From Longibacter salinarum (lineage in GTDB: Bacteria; Bacteroidota; Rhodothermia; Rhodothermales; Salinibacteraceae), in the NCBI RefSeq assembly GCF_002554795.1, contig NZ_PDEQ01000002.1:372001-436000 (forward strand): 64,000 nucleotides of DNA. The letters run 5' to 3'. Below the pieces are notes generated by a model. That model ran no database searches. It saw only the letters and a program-made list of their open reading frames with translations, and was not told the DNA's origin. Position numbers and translations under genes: made by a program. Below are positions 36,104-46,388 of this stretch, in pieces (position 1 is the stretch's first letter; every line of letters starts with the position of its first letter).

Positions 36104-36628
36104 ATGTTTACCCGCGACCTGATTCCGTTTGCATTCGTTTGCGCCCTTGGTTTCGCGTTGTTTGGGACGGGGTGTGATGATGGAAAAGGGACCCCGCCGG
36201 ACGTGCCCACCGGTCGATTCGAGGTCCGAGTCGAAGGGGCGATGGATCGGACCTTTACAGGGGAGGCTCGCTATCGACTGGTAGATGGTGATCTTGCGGG
36301 GTTCGAACTCGTGATCGATTCCACAAGCGGCCTTTCGATCGATGTGGAAAAGGGGCCGATTCGTCGCAAGACGTATCAGGTGGTGGAGTGGCAACTCATG
36401 CAGGTGGAACGACCCGGCGGTCCACCGGGAGCCATGGCGTTTCTCGAAACCCCGGACGCGGCCTTTGAGGCAAGGAATGGAACCATCCAGGTGACGTACA
36501 CCGGAGAGGAGGCAATTGGAGGAAAATTGAGTCTGACGATGGAGGGATCCCGCGAAGGCGTACCCGAGGACACGCACTCGATTCGTGCGGAAGGTGAATG
36601 GACCGCGACGCAGTTGCTGGTAGATTAG
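36104..36628 (+). CDS. Hypothetical lipoprotein
   Basis: 174 residues. A signal peptide with lipobox FGTGC puts the lipidated Cys at residue 24. The mature part is a beta-rich domain of about 140 residues (GRFEVRVEGAMDRTFTGEARY, GTIQVTYTGEEAIGG) with no motif I recognise. The stop is 113 bases before the arginine leader ORF. Confidence 0.7.
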   Translation: MFTRDLIPFAFVCALGFALFGTGCDDGKGTPPDVPTGRFEVRVEGAMDRTFTGEARYRLVDGDLAGFELVIDSTSGLSIDVEKGPIRRKTYQVVEWQLMQVERPGGPPGAMAFLETPDAAFEARNGTIQVTYTGEEAIGGKLSLTMEGSREGVPEDTHSIRAEGEWTATQLLVD

Positions 36629-36701
36629 GTGAAGAAGTGGTCTGTCATTCGGCGATTGCGGGCGTAGAAGCAGTAAGTGAGCATTTTATGTCCTCGGGCA
36701 C

Positions 36702-36731
36702 TTGACAAACCACGTCCGTTCCCCGTACCGT
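36702..36731 (+). promoter_or_regulatory. Candidate promoter of the arginine operon
   Basis: A perfect -35 hexamer TTGACA (36702-36707) is followed after 18 bases by TACCGT (36726-36731), which keeps the first, second and last bases of the -10 consensus. Transcription would begin near 36738, only about four bases before the leader ATG at 36742, so the leader ORF may be almost leaderless. Confidence 0.55.
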
Positions 36732-36741
36732 TAAAAGCACC

Positions 36742-36849
36742 ATGACGACCCAAACCGTCCATACCACCCGTGCCCGACGACGCGCTCGACGTGAGCGACG
36801 TATTCGCACCCGTATGGACGGAATCGACGCGCTGGGCACCATGGCATAA
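36742..36849 (+). CDS. Arginine-rich leader peptide of the arg operon
   Basis: A 35-codon ORF: MTTQTVHTT, then RARRRARRERRIRTR (residues 10-24, ten arginines), then MDGIDALGTMA and TAA. Arg codons are four CGT, four CGA and two CGC. It ends 155 bases before argG and is followed at once by a terminator and a competing pairing element. Position, size and codon content are those of a sensing leader peptide such as those of his, leu or thr operons. A ribosome short of charged Arg-tRNA would stall at 36769-36813. It is too short for a structured protein. No Shine-Dalgarno sequence is visible, as for most genes here. Function is inferred, not shown. Confidence 0.75.
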   Translation: MTTQTVHTTRARRRARRERRIRTRMDGIDALGTMA

Positions 36850-36939
36850 ACGTTAGCAAAACGTACTGACCAGGGAACGCCCTTCCCTCTTTGAGACAGG
36901 CGTTGGTTCCGACAGGAGCCGACGCCGTTTTGCGTTTGT
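36850..36939 (+). promoter_or_regulatory. Transcription attenuator of the arginine operon
   Basis: The terminator stem is 36899-36910 with 36915-36926, 12 pairs (two G-U) and loop GACA, followed by GTTTTGCGTTTG. An upstream element GCAAAACG (36856-36863) is perfectly complementary to CGTTTTGC (36926-36933), which covers the last stem base and the T tract, so it can act as an antiterminator. It starts six bases after the leader stop codon. A ribosome finishing the leader would cover it and let the terminator form; one stalled at Arg codons would leave it free. A small hairpin GGGAA/TTCCC (36873-36887) lies between and may be a pause site. Confidence 0.72.
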
Positions 36940-37004
36940 GTGGCTCCTATAGGTTTCGCGCTCCTCAGGCCTTCTTGTCGCTCGCCACGCAACCGCACGC
37001 TCTC

Positions 37005-38273
37005 ATGTCTATCATTCTCGCATTCAGCGGAGGACTCGACACGTCCTTCTGCGTCCCATATCTGAAGGAAACGTACGATACGCCGGTCCACACGGTCACG
37101 GTGGACACCGGCGGGCTGCGACCGGGCGATGCAGAGGCGATTGTACAGCGTGCAGAAGACCTCGGCGCAGCGAGTCACTCCCTTGTCGATGGTAAGGCGG
37201 CGCTCTACGAGGATCACCTCTCTTATCTCATTCAGGGCAATGTCAAGCGCGGGGGCGTCTACCCTCTGTGCGTGGGACCCGAGCGGGTCGTTCAGGCACG
37301 GGTGATGGTGCAGGCCGCCGCTGAACTCGGTGCCACCGCCATCGCGCACGGCTCCACCGGCGCCGGCAACGACCAGGTCCGGTTTGACGTCGCCACGCAG
37401 ATCCTGAGCCGGGCGATGCTGGGGAAAGAGCTCGACGTGCTCGCTCCCGTTCGGTCTCTCGGGCTCACCCGGGAAGCTTCCACGGCCTACCTGGAGGAAC
37501 GGGGATTCGACGTTCCCTCCTCGACGACCGACTATTCCATCAACCGGGGGCTCTGGGGCACGACCGTGGGTGGGGCGGAGACGCTCACGACGCACGGACC
37601 GCTACCCGACAGCGCCTATCCCGACACCACGGCACCGAAAGACGCGCCGGACGAGCCACTCACACTGAAGATTTCTTTCGAGAAGGGGTTGCCCGTCGCC
37701 GTCAATGGAGAAGCGATGGACGGCGTCTCGCTCGTTGAGCATCTGAACGAGGTGGGAGGTCAGCACGGGGTCGGGCGGGACATCCACGTCGGCGACACCA
37801 TTCTCGGCATCAAAGGGCGGGTCGGATTCGAAGCACCCGCCGCGGAGATCCTCATCACCGCCCACCGGGAGCTGGAGAAACTCGTGCTCTCGAAGTGGCA
37901 GCAGGTCAAGAAAGATGAGCTCGCGCAGTTCTACGGGATGCTTTTGCACGAAGCGCAGTACTTCGATCCGGTCATGCGCGACATCGAGGCGCATCTCACA
38001 TCGTCGCAAGAGACCGTCGACGGGACGGTGACTCTGGAACTCTACAAAGGCGTTGCCCGCGTCCTCGGGGCGGATAGTTCGAACTCGCTCTTCAACGCCT
38101 CCCTCGCCACGTACGGGGAGGAAAATGCGCTCTGGGATGGGCGCGACGCGGAGGGGTTCACCCGACTTGCCGGGGTTCAGTCGCTATTGGCGGCGGAGGT
38201 CCACTCGTCTTCCACATCGCCCTCGGGTGGCGACGGGGCGCTGGCGCCGCTCGCAAAGGCCGAGCCGCGATAG
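37005..38273 (+). CDS. argG: Argininosuccinate synthase
   Basis: 422 residues; joins citrulline and aspartate using ATP. The N-type ATP pyrophosphatase motif AFSGGLDTS is at residues 5-13. GSTGAGNDQVRF and DYSINRGLWGTTVGG are further family signatures. ATG 37005 is chosen by homology although the frame opens upstream at 36891. It is the first structural gene after the leader/attenuator. In the operon each gene is separated from the next by 38-54 bases. Confidence 0.95.
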   Translation: MSIILAFSGGLDTSFCVPYLKETYDTPVHTVTVDTGGLRPGDAEAIVQRAEDLGAASHSLVDGKAALYEDHLSYLIQGNVKRGGVYPLCVGPERVVQARVMVQAAAELGATAIAHGSTGAGNDQVRFDVATQILSRAMLGKELDVLAPVRSLGLTREASTAYLEERGFDVPSSTTDYSINRGLWGTTVGGAETLTTHGPLPDSAYPDTTAPKDAPDEPLTLKISFEKGLPVAVNGEAMDGVSLVEHLNEVGGQHGVGRDIHVGDTILGIKGRVGFEAPAAEILITAHRELEKLVLSKWQQVKKDELAQFYGMLLHEAQYFDPVMRDIEAHLTSSQETVDGTVTLELYKGVARVLGADSSNSLFNASLATYGEENALWDGRDAEGFTRLAGVQSLLAAEVHSSSTSPSGGDGALAPLAKAEPR

Positions 38274-38327: not shown

Positions 38328-39452
38328 ATGCCCCTCCACGCGATGAACGACGCTGCCCGTACCAGCACAACCTCCATTCAGCCGGACCTGATTGCCTCCA
38401 GCACAGCTCGATGCCAGCTTGGCCCCGACATCGAAATCTCGCCCTACGTCGTCGCCGAAGCCGGTTACACCGTGGCGGTTCGGGCGCTGGAAGAAAAAAC
38501 GCACTACAACCAGGTCGAGTGCTGTGACGGAAGCTTCCGAACGATCCGAAAGGGTGACGTCATCATCGGCGTGCTCGGCGAGCGGCAGGCGCTGAAAGGC
38601 TACAGTGGTGAGATTCCCCGGCATGTGGAGGCGGGAGACACGCTGCACGTGCTCAACCTGGGTGGCATCATCGGGCACTGTGCCTCCGCGCTGCCCGATC
38701 TCGGTCCGGCGCTGCGGGTGGAGGTGCTCGGTGCCCCGGTGGTTCACCGAAACGACCGAACGGTCCATGCCCGCATCCAGGACGGTGCACTGGAGCCGAA
38801 GCACACGCTGACGGACTCGGTGCCGCTGGTGATGGTCAGCGGAACAGCGATGAACACCGGCAAGACGATGGCCGCGTGCCGTCTCGTGCAGGGCCTGACG
38901 GAGAGCGGCTACTCGGTGGCGGCGGCGAAGCTGACCGGCGCCTCGCTCATGCGAGATGTGCGGAAGATGAAGTCGCACGGCGCGACGAATGTCGCCACGT
39001 TCACCGATGCCGGGGTCGTCTGCTCGACGAAGGGAGACATGGCGCCGGTGGCGAAGGGGATCGTCCATCACCTGAATCAGGCGGCGCCCGACGTCATCGT
39101 GCTCGAGTTGGGGGACGGTTTTATCGGATACTACGGCGTCGACGATCTGCTCTCGGATCGCGAACTCCAGCATCACACGGCTGCACACGTCGTCGCCGCG
39201 ACGGATCTCGCCGGGGCGTGGGCGGCAGAGCGCATGTTCTTCGAGCGCTACCGGGCGCCGATTACGGCGATAACAGGTCCGGTGACTGATAACGCCGTCG
39301 GCCGCCGCTATATCCAGACGCAGCTGGGCATTTCCGCCATGAACGCCCTTCAGCAACCGAACAAGCTGACTGCTGCCGTCCGCGCCACGCTCGACGGTGC
39401 CGCGAGCCCGGTGGTAGCCGGGTCGGCGCACGTTGCCCAGGATGCAGCGTGA
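38328..39452 (+). CDS. P-loop NTPase of unknown function (DUF1611-like) in the arg operon
   Basis: 374 residues. The first ~155 residues form a beta-rich domain without a recognised family. The C-terminal domain has a Walker A motif SGTAMNTGKT (about 180-189) and a Walker B-like VIVLELGDG with IGYYGVDDLL. This is the style of SIMIBI-class NTPases such as dethiobiotin synthetase or DUF1611 proteins. It lies between argG and argC with the same ~54-base spacing as the other genes, so it should be part of the pathway or its control. No gene for N-acylglutamate synthase is present; whether this protein relates to that gap is speculative. Confidence 0.7.
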   Translation: MPLHAMNDAARTSTTSIQPDLIASSTARCQLGPDIEISPYVVAEAGYTVAVRALEEKTHYNQVECCDGSFRTIRKGDVIIGVLGERQALKGYSGEIPRHVEAGDTLHVLNLGGIIGHCASALPDLGPALRVEVLGAPVVHRNDRTVHARIQDGALEPKHTLTDSVPLVMVSGTAMNTGKTMAACRLVQGLTESGYSVAAAKLTGASLMRDVRKMKSHGATNVATFTDAGVVCSTKGDMAPVAKGIVHHLNQAAPDVIVLELGDGFIGYYGVDDLLSDRELQHHTAAHVVAATDLAGAWAAERMFFERYRAPITAITGPVTDNAVGRRYIQTQLGISAMNALQQPNKLTAAVRATLDGAASPVVAGSAHVAQDAA

Positions 39453-39505
39453 CCTCCGGTCGCACCGCGCACAGGACATTCCGCTCCCCCACGTTTTTGA
39501 TCTCC

Positions 39506-40555
39506 ATGTCGCATTCCATTGCCCTCCTTCACGGCGCCGGTTACGTCGGCGGTGAACTCGTGAAGCTTCTCCATTCCCATCCGAACCTCGACCTCGCGGC
39601 GATAACGAGTCGCACCTACGCCGGTGAGCCGGTATATCAGGCGCACCCGGCGCTGCGAGGACAGGTGAATCTGTCGTTCTCCGATCCTACAGATCTCGAC
39701 CTGAGCGACGTGGATGCTGTGGTGGTGGCAGCCGAGCACGGTCGCGGAATGCATCTCGTGCCGCAGCTCCTGGCGTCCGGGTTTGCCGGTCCCATCGTTG
39801 ACCTCAGCGCGGACTTCCGGTTGAGCTCGCCCGCCATGTACACCGAGTGGTACGAGGAAACCCACGTCGCGCCGGACCTGATCGACGCCTTCGTCTACGG
39901 CCTCCCGGAGCTCAACGCGCCGTACGCGTCCGAAACCAAACTCATCGCGAACCCCGGATGCTACGCGACCGGTCTCGCGCTGGCTCTCGCTCCGCTCGCA
40001 GCGCAGAACGTGAAGCTTAGCGCTCACGTCACCGCATGCACTGGGGCGTCGGGGTCCGGCGCGTCTCCCTCCGCTGCCACGCACTTTCCCGATCGCGACG
40101 GAAACGTTCGAGCGTACAGCGTCCTCTCGCACCGGCACACGGCCGAAGTGCAGCAGTCGGTTGGCGAGCACATCGACCTGTCGTTCGTGCCGGTCAGCGG
40201 ACCGTGGACGCGCGGCATCTGGGGCACGATTCACCTCTCATGGCCGGCGGCGACTGCGGAAGCTGAGGTGTCTGAGTGGTTCGCCGCGGCCTACGCGGAT
40301 GCGCCCTGCGTCCGCCTCTCCGCTGGTTCGTTGCCCGAACTGCGGCCGGTGGTCGGCACCCCGTTCATGGACATCGGATGGCATGTTTTGGGCGAGAAAC
40401 TGGTCGTCGGGTTTGCGCTGGACAATCTGCTGAAGGGGGCGGCGAGCCAGGCGATTCAGAACCTGAATCTGCTCCTGGGACTCCCGGAAACTGCCGGCTT
40501 GCTTGCCTCACCGTCCGCGATGCCGTCCCACAAACTCGCCGTCTCTGCAGGGTGA
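39506..40555 (+). CDS. argC: N-acetyl-gamma-glutamyl-phosphate reductase
   Basis: 349 residues; NADPH-dependent reduction of N-acetylglutamyl phosphate to the semialdehyde. The N-terminal Rossmann motif is HGAGYVGGELVKLL, DLSADFRL follows, and the catalytic Cys152 is in NPGCYATG. The C-terminal half has GASGSGASPS and the usual dimerisation segment. The ATG at 39506 matches the family start; the frame is open earlier. Third gene of the operon. Confidence 0.95.
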   Translation: MSHSIALLHGAGYVGGELVKLLHSHPNLDLAAITSRTYAGEPVYQAHPALRGQVNLSFSDPTDLDLSDVDAVVVAAEHGRGMHLVPQLLASGFAGPIVDLSADFRLSSPAMYTEWYEETHVAPDLIDAFVYGLPELNAPYASETKLIANPGCYATGLALALAPLAAQNVKLSAHVTACTGASGSGASPSAATHFPDRDGNVRAYSVLSHRHTAEVQQSVGEHIDLSFVPVSGPWTRGIWGTIHLSWPAATAEAEVSEWFAAAYADAPCVRLSAGSLPELRPVVGTPFMDIGWHVLGEKLVVGFALDNLLKGAASQAIQNLNLLLGLPETAGLLASPSAMPSHKLAVSAG

Positions 40556-40593
40556 ACTCGCACCGTGCGAATGGCCCCCAAGATCTCATTTTG

Positions 40594-41790
40594 ATGACCG
40601 AACTCATGACGACTGACGAAACGATTGCCGTCGAACAGGCGCTCGAAATTCCGACTTACAGCAAGATGCCGATGGCGCTGGTGCGAGGCGACGGTTCTTA
40701 CGTGTACGACACGGAGGGAAACGCCTACCTCGACTTCTACGGAGGCCACTGCGTCTGCATCCTCGGTCACTGTCCTCCACGCGTGGTGAAGGCCATCCAG
40801 AAGCAGGCGGGCGAGCTCCTGTTTTACTCGAACGTCGCGCATAGCCCGATTCGGGCGGCGGCGGCTCAGTCCGTCGTCGAACTCGCGCCCGACGGACTCG
40901 GCAACGTCTTTTTCGCCAACTCCGGCTCGGAAGCAAACGAGACGGCCCTGAAGCTTGCGCGCAAATACACCGGTCGCTCCGGTGCCGTGGCGATCAGCGG
41001 GGGCTTTCATGGTCGAACCCTCGGCGCGCTCGCGACGACCCACAAGTCTATGTACCGCGAGCCGTACCTCGACGTGCTGCCGGAGACGCACTTCGCACCG
41101 TACGGCGATATCGATGCGATCGCCGATCTCCTCGCGTCGGGAGAGATCGCGGCCGTCATTCTCGAGGCCATCCAGAGCATCGCCGGCATGCGCATGGCCT
41201 CTACTTCCTTCATGCAGGAGCTTCGCGAGCTGTGCACGGAGCACGGCACGATGCTGATTCTGGACGAGGTGCAGACGGGCGTCGGTCGCACCGGGACGTT
41301 CTCGATCAGCGAGCACTATGGCATCACCCCCGACCTGATTACCATGGCGAAGAGCCTGGGAGCCGGCGTGCCGGTCAGTGCGGTGCTCGTGCATGACGAC
41401 ATCGCCGAGACAGTCGAGTCCGGCGATCAGGGTTCGACGTTCGGCGGTGGAATGCTGGCGATGGCAGCCGTGAAGGCCACGCTGGATCAAATCGTCGACG
41501 AGCGTCTGATGTCGCGCGCCGAAGAGATCCACTCCCGTCTGGCCGACGCGCTCGGTTCATCCGTCGCGGAGCTGCGAGGGAAAGGCTGTTTGATCGGCCT
41601 CAAGCTGGATCAGCCGGTCGCGCCGGTGATCGAGGCCCTTCGCGACCACGGTGTTCTCGTGGGAGGGTCGGTAGACCCGCACGTGATGCGTCTCATGCCG
41701 CCGCTCACGACGACGGATGCCGAGATCGAGGTCTTCGCCTCGGCCCTCACCGCTGCCCTCGACACCGTCGCCGATCTGGAGGTCGCCTGA
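40594..41790 (+). CDS. argD: Acetylornithine aminotransferase
   Basis: 398 residues, class III PLP aminotransferase converting N-acetylglutamate semialdehyde to N-acetylornithine. YVYDTEGNAYLDFYGG at the start, FFANSGSEANETALKLARKYTG, DEVQTGVGRTG, and the PLP lysine in TMAKSLGAGVP are all seen. ATG 40606 is an alternative start. Its operon position, between argC and argF', supports the specific function over other class III enzymes such as 4-aminobutyrate aminotransferase. Confidence 0.93.
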   Translation: MTELMTTDETIAVEQALEIPTYSKMPMALVRGDGSYVYDTEGNAYLDFYGGHCVCILGHCPPRVVKAIQKQAGELLFYSNVAHSPIRAAAAQSVVELAPDGLGNVFFANSGSEANETALKLARKYTGRSGAVAISGGFHGRTLGALATTHKSMYREPYLDVLPETHFAPYGDIDAIADLLASGEIAAVILEAIQSIAGMRMASTSFMQELRELCTEHGTMLILDEVQTGVGRTGTFSISEHYGITPDLITMAKSLGAGVPVSAVLVHDDIAETVESGDQGSTFGGGMLAMAAVKATLDQIVDERLMSRAEEIHSRLADALGSSVAELRGKGCLIGLKLDQPVAPVIEALRDHGVLVGGSVDPHVMRLMPPLTTTDAEIEVFASALTAALDTVADLEVA

Positions 41791-41844
41791 GCGCCCTTCG
41801 TCAAGCGACCCCGGTCTTCTTCACGTTCCGATCGAACGATCAAA

Positions 41845-42939
41845 ATGACTCCCTCCACTGCATTGTCCCATTCGTCCGCCTTTTCCAAAGAGGCACCTGC
41901 AACCATTCACTCGCTACACGAGAGCAAGAAGCAGCGACATGTCCTCAGCATCGGCGACCTCGACGATGCGACCTGGCGCCATGTCATCGATTCGGCGATC
42001 ATCTACAAGAAAGCAGGGGTCCCGAGCAAGCCGATTGCGAGCGGGAAAAGTCTCGGGCTGGTTTTCCTGAATCCGTCGCTACGCACGCGGACGTCGATGG
42101 AGCTCGCGGCCCAGCGCCTCGGGGCCAACGTCACAACGCTGACGCCGGGACAGGACGCCTGGCAGCTGGCCTTCGGCGACGGCGTCGTCATGGACGGCGT
42201 GGAGGCCGAGCACGTGCGCGATGCGTTCGCCGTGCTATCGCGCTATGTGGATGCCCTCGGCGTGCGGGTGTTTGCCTCGGGGACGGATCATGAGAAGGAC
42301 GTTGCCGACGTGATGATGAAGGAAATCGCCGACGCCGCGACGGTGCCCGTGATTAACCTCGAGTCCGCGATGCATCATCCGTGTCAGGCGCTCGCCGACG
42401 CCGCCGTGATGGCCGATCACTTCGACGGAAAGGCCGCCGGGAAGAAATTTGTGCTCACCTGGACGCATCATCCGAAGGCCTTGCCGATGGCGGTGCCGAA
42501 CTCGGCTCTCCTCGCTGCGGCGCGGTCCGGCATGCACGTCACGGTCGCGCGGCCGGATTCCCATGTGCTGGAGTCCTCCGTGATGGACACGGCATCGACC
42601 CTCGCCGAAACGCACGGCGGTAGTGTCATGGAGAGTAGCGATATGGACGCCGCGATCGAAGGAGCCGATGTCGTCTACGCGAAAGCGTGGGGCGGACCGA
42701 TGACCTACACGGACCCGGAGAAAGAGGCATCGCTCCGCACGTCGCTGTCAGACTGGCGGGTCACGGCCGAGCACATGGCATCCACGCGAAACGGTCGGTT
42801 CATGCACTGCCTGCCGGTGCGTCGCAACGTGGTGGTCGATGATGCCGTGCTCGATGGGCCGCAGGCGATGCACATCGATCAGGCGGAATATCGTCTTCAC
42901 GCACAGCAGGCGCTCCTGGAGCACGTGTTCGACTGCTGA
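41845..42939 (+). CDS. argF': N-acetylornithine carbamoyltransferase (argF')
   Basis: 364 residues. Carbamoyl-phosphate binding FLNPSLRTRTSME, HPCQALAD and HCLPVRRNV are transcarbamylase motifs. TWTHHPKALPMAVPNSAL and the VVMDGVEAEHV segment match acetyl/succinyl-ornithine transcarbamylases rather than ordinary ArgF. The acidic residues in MDGVEAEH resemble the acetyl-specific Xanthomonas enzyme (MDGDTEEH) more than the succinyl-specific Bacteroides one, so N-acetylornithine is the likelier substrate. The product N-acetylcitrulline would be deacetylated by the argE product two genes on. Confidence 0.9.
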   Translation: MTPSTALSHSSAFSKEAPATIHSLHESKKQRHVLSIGDLDDATWRHVIDSAIIYKKAGVPSKPIASGKSLGLVFLNPSLRTRTSMELAAQRLGANVTTLTPGQDAWQLAFGDGVVMDGVEAEHVRDAFAVLSRYVDALGVRVFASGTDHEKDVADVMMKEIADAATVPVINLESAMHHPCQALADAAVMADHFDGKAAGKKFVLTWTHHPKALPMAVPNSALLAAARSGMHVTVARPDSHVLESSVMDTASTLAETHGGSVMESSDMDAAIEGADVVYAKAWGGPMTYTDPEKEASLRTSLSDWRVTAEHMASTRNGRFMHCLPVRRNVVVDDAVLDGPQAMHIDQAEYRLHAQQALLEHVFDC

Positions 42940-42990
42940 CACGTGCCGGAGCGATGAGAGCGTTTTTCTTCCCCATAGAACGTTGTGACC

Positions 42991-43809
42991 ATGAAGGCAG
43001 ATGACTCAGATTCCTCCCCCTCGGAGGCCGGAGTGACCGTCGTAAAGATTAGCGGCACCCTGCTGGATCAGCCGGCAGACCTGGACGCATTCTGGCGTTC
43101 CGTCGCAAATCTCGCGGACAGCGGACCGCTCGTGCTCGTGCACGGCGGGGGAAAGCAGGCCACGGCGCTCGCCGAACGGCTGGGACATACGCCGACGGTG
43201 GTGCAGGGGCGTCGCGTGACCACCGACCTCGACCTCGACATCGTGCAGTGGGCGCTCTGCGGGAAAATCAACACCCAGCTGGTCGCCGCCGCGAAGCAGC
43301 ACGGCCTGCGTGCGGTCGGCCTCTCCGGCGCCGACGACTCGATGCTTCAGGTGGAGAAGCGTCCGGCCTGGACGGTGGACGGGGAGCAGGTAGACTTCGG
43401 CTGGGTGGGCGATGTCGTCGGGGTCGATCCCGACGTCCTGCATCATCTCGTGGCGTCTGGCCGCGTGCCCGTCGTGGCTCCGCTCGGTATCGATGACGCC
43501 GGTCAGGTTTACAACGTCAATGCGGACACCGTCGCGCAGAACATCGCCGCAGCGCTCGGGGCGTCGAAGCTGCTTCTGGTGACAGCATCCGGTGGCGTCC
43601 GGCGCGAGGCCGAGTCAGCGGAAACACACCTCGACACCTGCGACGCCGACATGGTGGCGACGGGCATCGCGGAAGGCTGGATCGAGGGCGGCATGCGCGT
43701 GAAAGTTGAAACCGCCCTCGCTGCTCTCGACAGCGGTGTCCGGGAAGCATTTATCTGCGCCGCGAACGACCTTCTGGCCCGCTCGCATGCAACTCAGGTC
43801 GTTGCTTGA
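42991..43809 (+). CDS. argB: Acetylglutamate kinase
   Basis: 272 residues from ATG 42991 (a GTG two codons earlier is possible). Amino-acid kinase fold: VVKISGTLLDQ start, LVLVHGGGKQATALAERLG for phosphate and N-acetylglutamate binding, GKINTQLVAAAKQHG, VYNVNADTVAQNIAAALGASKLLLVT, and EGGMRVKVETA at the end. It phosphorylates N-acetylglutamate. It lacks the N-terminal helix extension associated with arginine-inhibited hexameric forms, so feedback control may rest on gene expression. Confidence 0.93.
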   Translation: MKADDSDSSPSEAGVTVVKISGTLLDQPADLDAFWRSVANLADSGPLVLVHGGGKQATALAERLGHTPTVVQGRRVTTDLDLDIVQWALCGKINTQLVAAAKQHGLRAVGLSGADDSMLQVEKRPAWTVDGEQVDFGWVGDVVGVDPDVLHHLVASGRVPVVAPLGIDDAGQVYNVNADTVAQNIAAALGASKLLLVTASGGVRREAESAETHLDTCDADMVATGIAEGWIEGGMRVKVETALAALDSGVREAFICAANDLLARSHATQVVA

Positions 43810-43856
43810 AACCCCATTTCGGTACGCCACTCCTTCCCGCTTGATTTCACCTGACA

Positions 43857-44990
43857 ATGCCTCTTCCCACCGTTCCATCTTCGACGGATCAGCAGACCGA
43901 TCCCGTCGACCTGCTCCGCTCATTGATAGCCATTCCCTCGCTCAGCGGGGAGGAAGGCCCGGCTGCGGACTTGATCGAGCACGTCGGGCGCAGTGCCGGA
44001 GTTGATGTCTGGCGAAAAGACGACAACGTAGTGCTTTCGGTTGGCGAGGGGGAGAACGTCTTGCTTCTCAACTCGCACCTCGACGTGGTGCCGCCGTCCG
44101 ACGGGCACCACTACGCGCCGTTCGATCCGGTGGTGAAGGACGGATGGCTCTTCGGGCGCGGCAGCGTCGACGCGAAGGCAAGCGGAGCAGCGATGATGTC
44201 CGCTCTTCTAGAGGCGGCTTCCTCCGGATCGATGCCAGCAAATGGGCAACTCATGGTTGCACTCACGGCCTGCGAGGAGGGCGGAGGGATGTACAACGGA
44301 CTCCAGGATATTCGCCCCGACGTGCCGGAGCCGGCCGCGGTGGTTATCGGCGAACCGACGGGCCTCATTCCGTGCGTGGCGCAGAAGGGCCTGCTCATTT
44401 TGAAAATCCACGCGCACGGGACATCCGCTCACGCCGGGCGGCCGCACCTCGGCGTCAACGCAATCACGCGAGCGGCAACAGCGGTTCAGGAGATCGAGCA
44501 GCTCATTCTGGAGAAGGAAGATCCTCATCTCGGCGCCCCGACGGTTACCGTGACCACGATCGAGGGCGGGAGTGCGAGAAATGCCGTTCCCGAGCACTGC
44601 GTGTTTGCTGTCGACATCCGTACAACACCGGCTTACACGCACACGGAGATTATCGACAGGGTGCGGTCGGCGCTGCAGCCGTATGACGGCGTCGAGGTCG
44701 AGGTCTACAGCAACCGTTTCGTGCCGTGCGCCACGCCGGAGAACGCTCCGATCCGGCAAGTGGCGATCGACGCCTCCTCGGCGCTGCACGGAGAAGCGGT
44801 CGTCCCATTCGGGTCGCCTACCGCCTCCGACTGGATCTTCGTCCAAGACCTTCCCGCCGTCAAGCTGGGGCCGGGCGACAGCAACCGTTCGCACACCGCG
44901 GACGAGCGAATCCGCGTGTCGGATGTCCACAGCGCGCAGCGACTCTACCTCAATCTCGCCCGCACGTATTTCGAGCGGACTGCAGCGTAG
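43857..44990 (+). CDS. argE: Acetylornithine deacetylase/acetylcitrulline deacetylase (M20 family)
   Basis: 377 residues. M20 metallopeptidase motifs: SHLDVVPP (metal His and adjacent Asp), GRGSVDAKAS (bridging Asp) and TACEEGGGMYNG (catalytic Glu pair). The lid domain carries GTSAHAGRPHLGVNAI and a late His-rich end (SNRSHTADERIRV). Because the transcarbamylase is of the acetylornithine type, the physiological substrate is probably N-acetylcitrulline. It sits between argB and argH. Confidence 0.9.
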   Translation: MPLPTVPSSTDQQTDPVDLLRSLIAIPSLSGEEGPAADLIEHVGRSAGVDVWRKDDNVVLSVGEGENVLLLNSHLDVVPPSDGHHYAPFDPVVKDGWLFGRGSVDAKASGAAMMSALLEAASSGSMPANGQLMVALTACEEGGGMYNGLQDIRPDVPEPAAVVIGEPTGLIPCVAQKGLLILKIHAHGTSAHAGRPHLGVNAITRAATAVQEIEQLILEKEDPHLGAPTVTVTTIEGGSARNAVPEHCVFAVDIRTTPAYTHTEIIDRVRSALQPYDGVEVEVYSNRFVPCATPENAPIRQVAIDASSALHGEAVVPFGSPTASDWIFVQDLPAVKLGPGDSNRSHTADERIRVSDVHSAQRLYLNLARTYFERTAA

Positions 44991-45041
44991 CTCAACTGCC
45001 CCGCCGAACCGCGTCCCAACCTCTTTACTGCACCGCATACC

Positions 45042-46388
45042 ATGCCGAATCTGTGGGAAAAGTCCACGACCGATGCTGCTACCGCGACGACCGCGCCCGA
45101 CGACTGGGTCATGCGCTTCACCGTGGGAGACGACTATCTGTGGGATCGTGTGCTGCTGCCGTATGACGTCACGGCGACGCGCGGTCACATCTGGGGGCTC
45201 AAGAAAATCGGTGTTCTATCGGAGAAGGAGTACGCTGATGTCGAAGACGCACTCGACGACGTGATGGCCGCGTTTGAGTCCGGCACGATCACCGTCACCC
45301 CTTCGGACGAGGACAGCCACACCGTCATCGAAAACGAACTGACGGAGAGGCTCGGCAGCGTCGGGGAAAAGATTCACGCGGGGCGCTCCCGAAACGATCA
45401 GGTGCTCGCGGCCCTCCGGCTGTACCTTCAGGATGCGATCCAGCACATCGGTCGGCAGGTCGGGGGACTGGTGGACGCGCTGTGCGGTCTGGCGGAGAGG
45501 CATCCGGATACGCTGATGCCCGGCTACACGCACCTGCAGCGCGCCATGCCGTCGACCGTGGCGCTGTGGGCGCTCGGTTATGCTGAGACGCTGGTGAGTG
45601 ATCTCGACGGGTTGCGGCACGTACGCGAACAGGTTAACGTCTCGCCGCTGGGAAGCGCGGCGGGCTACGGTGTCCCGCATCTGGACCTGCCGCGCGAAGA
45701 GGTGGCCGAGCGCCTCGGCTTTCGCGCTGTGCAGACGCACGTGACGAGTGTGCAGCTGAGCCGGGGGAAGCACGAGATGGCAGTGGTTCACGCCCTCGTC
45801 CAGATGATCGGCACCGTCAACCGACTGGCGTCGGACCTCATCCTGTACGCGACGAGCGAGTTTGGCTTCGTCGATCTTCCGGATGCGCACTGCACCGGGT
45901 CGAGCATCATGCCGCAGAAGAAGAATCCGGACGTGCTGGAGCTGTCGCGAGGGGCATACGCGGGGCTCGTGGGCGAACTGCAGAGCCTGGCTGTGCAGCC
46001 GGCGAACCTGCCGGGCGGGTACCACCGTGATTTGCAGCGCACGAAGGGCGCGCTGATGCGGAGTTTGCAGCAGAGCCGGGACGTCCTCGATGCTGTTACC
46101 GCCGTGGTCGAGGGCGTGACGTTCCAGAGGGAGCGAACCGAAGCCGCGTGTACGCCGGACCTTATGGCAACGCACCGTGCGCTGGAGCAGGTCGCGGAGG
46201 GCGTCTCGTTCCGGACGGCGTACCGGGAGGCGGCGGTCGATCTGAACGGAGCGGCCTCGCTCGACCCCGCGGACGTGCTGGCGACGTACGCGACACCCGG
46301 CTCCCTGGGGCGGGAGCGGCCGCAGGTTGTGCGGGTGATGCTGGACCAGCAGGAATGGCTGGAAAGGGTTGAAAGTGGGAAAGGGTGA
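45042..46388 (+). CDS. argH: Argininosuccinate lyase
   Basis: 448 residues; splits argininosuccinate into arginine and fumarate and ends the pathway. IHAGRSRNDQV, PGYTHLQRAMP (catalytic His) and the fumarase/lyase signature GSSIMPQKKNPD are all present. It is the last gene of the operon. Its 3' end overlaps the purine-rich degenerate repeat, and a palindromic hairpin lies 60 bases after the stop. Confidence 0.95.
   Translation: MPNLWEKSTTDAATATTAPDDWVMRFTVGDDYLWDRVLLPYDVTATRGHIWGLKKIGVLSEKEYADVEDALDDVMAAFESGTITVTPSDEDSHTVIENELTERLGSVGEKIHAGRSRNDQVLAALRLYLQDAIQHIGRQVGGLVDALCGLAERHPDTLMPGYTHLQRAMPSTVALWALGYAETLVSDLDGLRHVREQVNVSPLGSAAGYGVPHLDLPREEVAERLGFRAVQTHVTSVQLSRGKHEMAVVHALVQMIGTVNRLASDLILYATSEFGFVDLPDAHCTGSSIMPQKKNPDVLELSRGAYAGLVGELQSLAVQPANLPGGYHRDLQRTKGALMRSLQQSRDVLDAVTAVVEGVTFQRERTEAACTPDLMATHRALEQVAEGVSFRTAYREAAVDLNGAASLDPADVLATYATPGSLGRERPQVVRVMLDQQEWLERVESGKG

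Follow-up and report, generated by a model that had tools for sequence, protein, structure and literature searches.

In textbooks, the repressor protein ArgR stands for the control of arginine biosynthesis operons, and ribosome-mediated attenuation for that of trp, his, leu and thr. Control by ArgR or AhrC serves the same task as the control proposed here, i.e. to keep the arg genes low at plentiful arginine, but it is exerted by a DNA-binding protein. The trp, his, leu, thr, ilv and phe attenuators of Proteobacteria consist of a leader ORF with codons for the cognate amino acid, an intrinsic terminator and the pairings 1:2, 2:3 and 3:4 between RNA segments (theory in PMC1183508). The leader described in this study resembles them in its sequence features, pairing 1:2 being less clear-cut than the others in the window. 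In contrast to the attenuators of Proteobacteria it would respond to arginine, is probably read from a leaderless mRNA without a Shine-Dalgarno sequence and belongs to a class without ArgR. Furthermore, its segment 2 is located inside the ORF about 13 nt ahead of the stop codon, not past the stop.

In mycobacteria, too, genes for an amino acid can be preceded by short leaderless ORFs in which the codons for this amino acid form a run, namely the polycysteine uORFs (PMC4633059). These sense cysteine and act by translation attenuation, as stated in PMC13236596; the arg leader differs from them by a covarying intrinsic transcription terminator. In Salmonella, two consecutive Arg codons of the orf34/speF leader likewise sense arginine via ribosome progress and alternative mRNA structure. 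Unlike the arg leader, orf34 controls the ornithine decarboxylase SpeF (polyamines) via Rho and RNase G and has no intrinsic terminator (PMC6386406). Pseudomonas aeruginosa carAB also possesses a leader peptide, and attenuation has been proposed for it in arginine and pyrimidine metabolism. There, attenuation is attributed to pyrimidines and arginine acts at the transcriptional level (PMC4997734), which is different from the arg leader. In the literature searched, no operon for arginine biosynthesis is described as being attenuated via Arg codons; many subscription journals lay outside this search, and an earlier description is possible.

The window, i.e. the whole stretch of DNA analysed here, comprises 64,000 nucleotides of Longibacter salinarum and contains an arg operon with an Arg-rich leader. 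The first-pass annotation of this DNA had suggested attenuation at the Arg codons. This idea is strongly supported by conservation in the class, covariation and the lack of ArgR, except for the antiterminator proposed with it, which did not stand. We consider it highly probable, judging from the sequences compared, that the whole arg operon is subject to ribosome-mediated transcription attenuation responding to charged Arg-tRNA.

Leader ORF, terminator and promoter ahead of argG

The first gene of the putatively attenuated operon is argG (37005-38273, plus strand; Pfam Arginosuc_synth and Arginosuc_syn_C). It is followed on the same strand, within 39503-46388, by argC (39503), argD (40609), an argF-like carbamoyltransferase gene (41845), argB (42985), an argE-like M20 peptidase gene (43857) and argH (45042-46388), all assigned by Pfam. 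Between argG and argC lies an ORF of 374 aa (38328-39449, plus strand) that is without a Pfam match and contains the P-loop-like motif GTAMNTGKT. It is present in the arg operon of many families and missing from others.

The leader ORF (36742-36849, plus strand) has 35 codons and encodes MTTQTVHTTRARRRARRERRIRTRMDGIDALGTMA, followed by the stop. Ten Arg residues are found among residues 10-24, and the corresponding codons (36769-36813; 4 CGA, 4 CGT, 2 CGC) form the predicted stalling site. With 10 Arg in 15 residues, the ORF ranks first in Arg density among the 867 small ORFs (12-70 aa, six frames) of the whole window, the next ones reaching 9 and 8. The leader of a relative from the same genus reads MTTQTVHTTRARRRARRERRTRTRMDGIDAEGAMA, again followed by the stop. 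The fold of the leader RNA is better than that of 200 out of 200 dinucleotide shuffles (z -4.75). Rfam gave zero matches up to E=5 across 36500-37200, with no T-box or riboswitch family among them, and similar DNA was not found in the plasmid collection.

An intrinsic terminator is located between the leader stop and argG. Its stem (36899-36926, plus strand, loop GACA) is composed of the 5' arm GGCGTTGGTTCC (segment 3, 36899-36910) and the 3' arm GGAGCCGACGCC (segment 4, 36915-36926), and a T-rich tail, GTTTTGCGTTTG, follows at 36927-36938. The tail is interrupted and weaker than that of most relatives, in which the T runs are continuous. The 3:4 helix shows strong covariation: over 41 sequences 92.4% of the cells are paired and 80 cells are changed on both sides, 11 of the 12 pairs show changes on both sides, and none of 500 shuffles was as good. 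All 48 leaders that were folded possess an intrinsic terminator.

The leader ATG is preceded by a -35 hexamer TTGACA (36702-36707) and, after N18, a -10 hexamer TACCGT (36726-36731), which ends 10 nt ahead of it, both on the plus strand. The promoter hexamers, the ORF, the 8-mer after its stop, the stem and the tail complement listed in the first-pass annotation were all recovered base for base at these positions. A sigma70-type promoter of the form TTG...N16-19...TAnnnT was recognised for 49 of 79 leaders, its end being 6-11 nt (7-10 nt in nearly all) upstream of an in-frame start codon; displaced positions gave a mean of 0.74 and a maximum of 4. A Shine-Dalgarno-like motif precedes 1 of the 79 leaders and 3 of the 79 argG genes. 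A transcription start about 7 nt past the -10 hexamer (at about 36738) predicts a 5' UTR of 0-4 nt, with the AUG at about +1 to +4. This promoter spacing suggests that the leader ORF is probably translated from a leaderless or near-leaderless mRNA, a point not made in the first-pass annotation.

Distribution in the class and absence of ArgR

The search for argG covered first 100 relatives and later 245 genomes of the class, and the upstream regions were compared. The gene order of the arg operon is the same in the relatives, and in every one of those examined argG precedes the other arg genes. An Arg-rich ORF plus terminator ahead of argG was detected in 84 of 90 testable genomes, belonging to 18 families. 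These leaders comprise about 18-45 codons and usually start 140-280 nt ahead of argG, with the terminator within about 75 nt. The argG genes from outside the class used as controls gave 2 chance matches out of 74, unlike in form. An apparent lack of the leader in family f14 turned out to be an artefact of the Arg density cut-off; this family has leaders of the MHASCTHTRRFVAFPSRLRRGC type.

A search with a covariance model of the element detected one copy in the L. salinarum genome, namely the argG leader (E 2e-15). Almost all high-scoring matches elsewhere are located ahead of argG, too. Twenty secondary loci from relatives, taken from the matches to the model, were considered as further Arg leaders and rejected, since they are plain terminators with no Arg run.

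The Arg residues are kept while their codons vary (CGA, CGT, CGC, AGG), indicating that it is the amino acid that is conserved. Over 48 leaders the Arg codons are CGA (44%), CGT (23%), CGC (23%) and CGG (5%); the corresponding values for the genes of the arg operon in these genomes are 8%, 12%, 46% and 29%. Theory on the sensitivity of attenuators asks for a skewed choice among synonymous codons, and the skew in the leaders fits its prediction that sensitive attenuators use particular codons (PMC1183508). In the leaders of many families, a His-Thr/Ile-Ala motif (CAT ACC GCC or CAT ATC GCC) often occurs 2-6 codons ahead of the Arg run. This motif might belong to segment 1 or serve as a signal in the peptide.

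The codon data bear on an alternative in which the RNA switch downstream is the same and the sensor is a different one. The Arg-rich nascent peptide, alone or together with a small molecule such as arginine or ornithine, might arrest the ribosome from within the exit tunnel, as in TnaC or SpeFL-type sensors, so that tRNA charging would not be what is sensed. Dense positive charge can indeed slow ribosomes, and the His-Thr/Ile-Ala motif is common to many leaders. However, the peptide flanking the Arg run varies widely (18-45 residues, with the His motif missing in several leaders), while the Arg codons are retained, as is the distance between them and segment 2. A peptide sensor does not require the strong synonymous Arg codon bias either, and the sister element at trpE, described below, carries Trp in place of Arg. 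We therefore regard arrest by the peptide as unlikely, and sensing of charged Arg-tRNA as the reading to be followed here.

The genome of L. salinarum lacks the ArgR domain (PF01316), as do 243 of the 245 genomes of the class; the same search was positive in 9 of 14 known control genomes. One of the two exceptions (G037, contig C1, L172-L176) carries a 127-aa frame in five identical copies, each with an ArgR-like domain (33 bits); these may represent a mobile element. In the other (G060, contig C181, L171/L226) ArgR is located directly ahead of an argG that is 50% identical to the argG of the window and has no leader. Horizontal transfer may have led to a replacement here, or the assembly may be contaminated. 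Two families manage without the Arg leader and without ArgR: f16 (L197-L207, L233, L234), with leaders in 0 of 13, and f15 (L151, L156, L162, L167, L169, L170, L209, L223-L225, L230, L231), in which the 2 formal matches among 14 look spurious. Thus, not all members of the class depend on the attenuator for this pathway.

Since ArgR is absent, another DNA-binding protein might act as repressor at the promoter and exert the main control, the ORF and terminator then being responsible for basal read-through or representing the remains of a small gene; f15 and f16, lacking both leader and ArgR, would agree with this. Over 18 families, however, a small gene would not retain an Arg run together with a terminator located 18-67 nt past the stop and a covarying competitor of this terminator, and we consider such a repressor very unlikely to be the main control, as opposed to attenuation at the Arg codons.

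In part of family f5 (L135, L208, L148) a small regulator frame resembling MarR/PadR (VTVGSLWVSLD...GRPRVYYALTPKGRRAL) was noticed close upstream of argG. In g31 it occupies the place of the Arg leader; the assignment is by the look of the sequence only.

Alternative pairings of the leader RNA

Segment 3 is common to the terminator (3:4) and to the putative antiterminator (2:3). The antiterminator strand, segment 2 (GGAATCGACGC, 36820-36830, plus strand), corresponds to leader codons 27-30 and can pair with 36900-36910 over 11 uninterrupted bp (-18.2 kcal/mol for the duplex; P 0.03 against shuffles). The strongest competitor of the terminator 5' arm consists of late leader codons, not of post-stop sequence. 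Over all leaders, segment 2 starts at a median of 21 nt past the Arg run and ends 13 nt ahead of the stop, which would place it directly in front of a ribosome halted at the Arg codons and close beneath one that has reached the stop codon.

When arms were swapped between leaders, the own 2:3 pair was better than the swapped ones, both with one leader per genus (n=25, P=5e-5) and with one per family (n=13, P=8e-4). A distance of +14 to +26 nt between Arg run and segment 2 was found for 14 of 25 genera, compared to 2.9 in shuffles and 6.9 in arm swaps (P=0.003). In register, 70% of the 2:3 cells are paired versus 34-45% when the strands are slid against each other. Taken singly, no more than 13 of the 48 leaders show a significant 2:3 pairing, and it is poor in several families (part of f5, f13, some of f2 and f9).

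Segment 1 (CCGTCCATAC, 36755-36764, plus strand) pairs with GTATGGACGG (36812-36821) around the Arg run in the fold of the free leader. The own 1:2 pairing exceeded the swapped ones in the test with 25 genera, too (P=1e-4), and L114 shows a compensatory pairing of segment 1, CCGTCCACG:CGTGGACGG. The protector hairpin 1:2 is clear in L119. At the window locus its overlap with segment 2 amounts to 2 nt only, so that the protector hairpin is not strictly exclusive there.

In constrained folds of the window leader, placing the ribosome on the last Arg codon, at a stage when the polymerase has just passed the loop, results in 2:3. This helix is missing if the ribosome is placed at the stop codon, and the free RNA folds into 1:2 plus 3:4. 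As a candidate antiterminator, 2:3 would compete with the terminator, and segment 2 is located directly in front of the predicted stalling position; the support is statistical over genera, and weak in some families.

The first-pass annotation had expected a different antiterminator, in which GCAAAACG (36856-36863) pairs with its complement CGTTTTGC (36926-36933) in the tail and is covered by a ribosome at the stop. Upstream of argG in the relatives, the Arg run and the terminator it described are conserved; the 8-bp complement is not. Scored in 48 leaders, the pairing of GCAAAACG with the U-tract was good in the window (P 0.02 against shuffles), weaker in the same genus, where it persists with one G-U pair, and in most others no better than shuffles (most P above 0.1). 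A helix using the U-tract forms too late to compete with intrinsic termination. Because the partner of GCAAAACG is the U-tract plus one stem base, this helix could form only past the termination point. As, furthermore, a different and conserved competitor exists (36820-36830 with the terminator 5' arm), we give this antiterminator hardly any credence and assume that pairing 2:3 has this function.

Proposed control of the operon and a parallel at trpE

From the elements found, their conservation, covariation and spacing we infer how stalling, termination and the direction of the response may be connected. Transcription would begin at or a few bases ahead of the leader AUG, and a ribosome would load at the 5' end of the RNA. 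If Arg-tRNA is scarce, the ribosome is expected to stall in the Arg run (36769-36813), with segment 2 beyond its front edge and thus free. Free segment 2 would pair with 36900-36910 once these bases are made; the terminator would not form and the polymerase would enter argG. If Arg-tRNA is plentiful, the ribosome would cover segment 2 up to the stop codon, no antiterminator would form and transcription would end at 36899-36926. In the case that no ribosome loads at all, 1:2 and 3:4 would form, and transcription should end, too.

A class-wide arg attenuator without ArgR would fill the arginine gap among attenuation systems and explain how the whole class controls its arginine pathway. Leaderless leader ORFs might, with roughly even chances, be the general sensor of tRNA charging for the amino acid operons of Rhodothermia, at least for arg and trp, and have replaced ArgR. 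In that case the ribosome would load on the newborn 5' end, and the attenuators would function without a Shine-Dalgarno sequence and perhaps without the early polymerase pause of trp. Leaderless attenuators of this kind would be a natural set for studying the timing of ribosome loading, with the trp leader as internal comparison.

The trp leader of L. salinarum is located upstream of trpE (291917-293305, minus strand, G000:C6, L288) and encodes MANAINNTTWRWWWPGLRVKGCACFHLASE (WRWWW), followed by the stop. No leader was seen at hisG of this organism, and none of its genes passed the family cut-off as ilvB or leuA, so that there is no operon for branched-chain amino acids to compare. The promoter of the trp leader, TTGCAG-N17-TATAGT, is separated from the ATG by 9 nt. 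The leader has a terminator, GACCCGCTGCTTCCCCGAGGCAGTGGGTTTTTTATTT, and its late codons are complementary to the terminator 5' arm. Thus, trpE of L. salinarum has a putative leaderless trp attenuator with the same layout as at argG. About 21 of 30 trpE loci of the order possess a WW-type leader (24 formal matches, three of which look spurious). In these leaders the complement is often located 10-15 nt past the last Trp codon, ahead of the stop.
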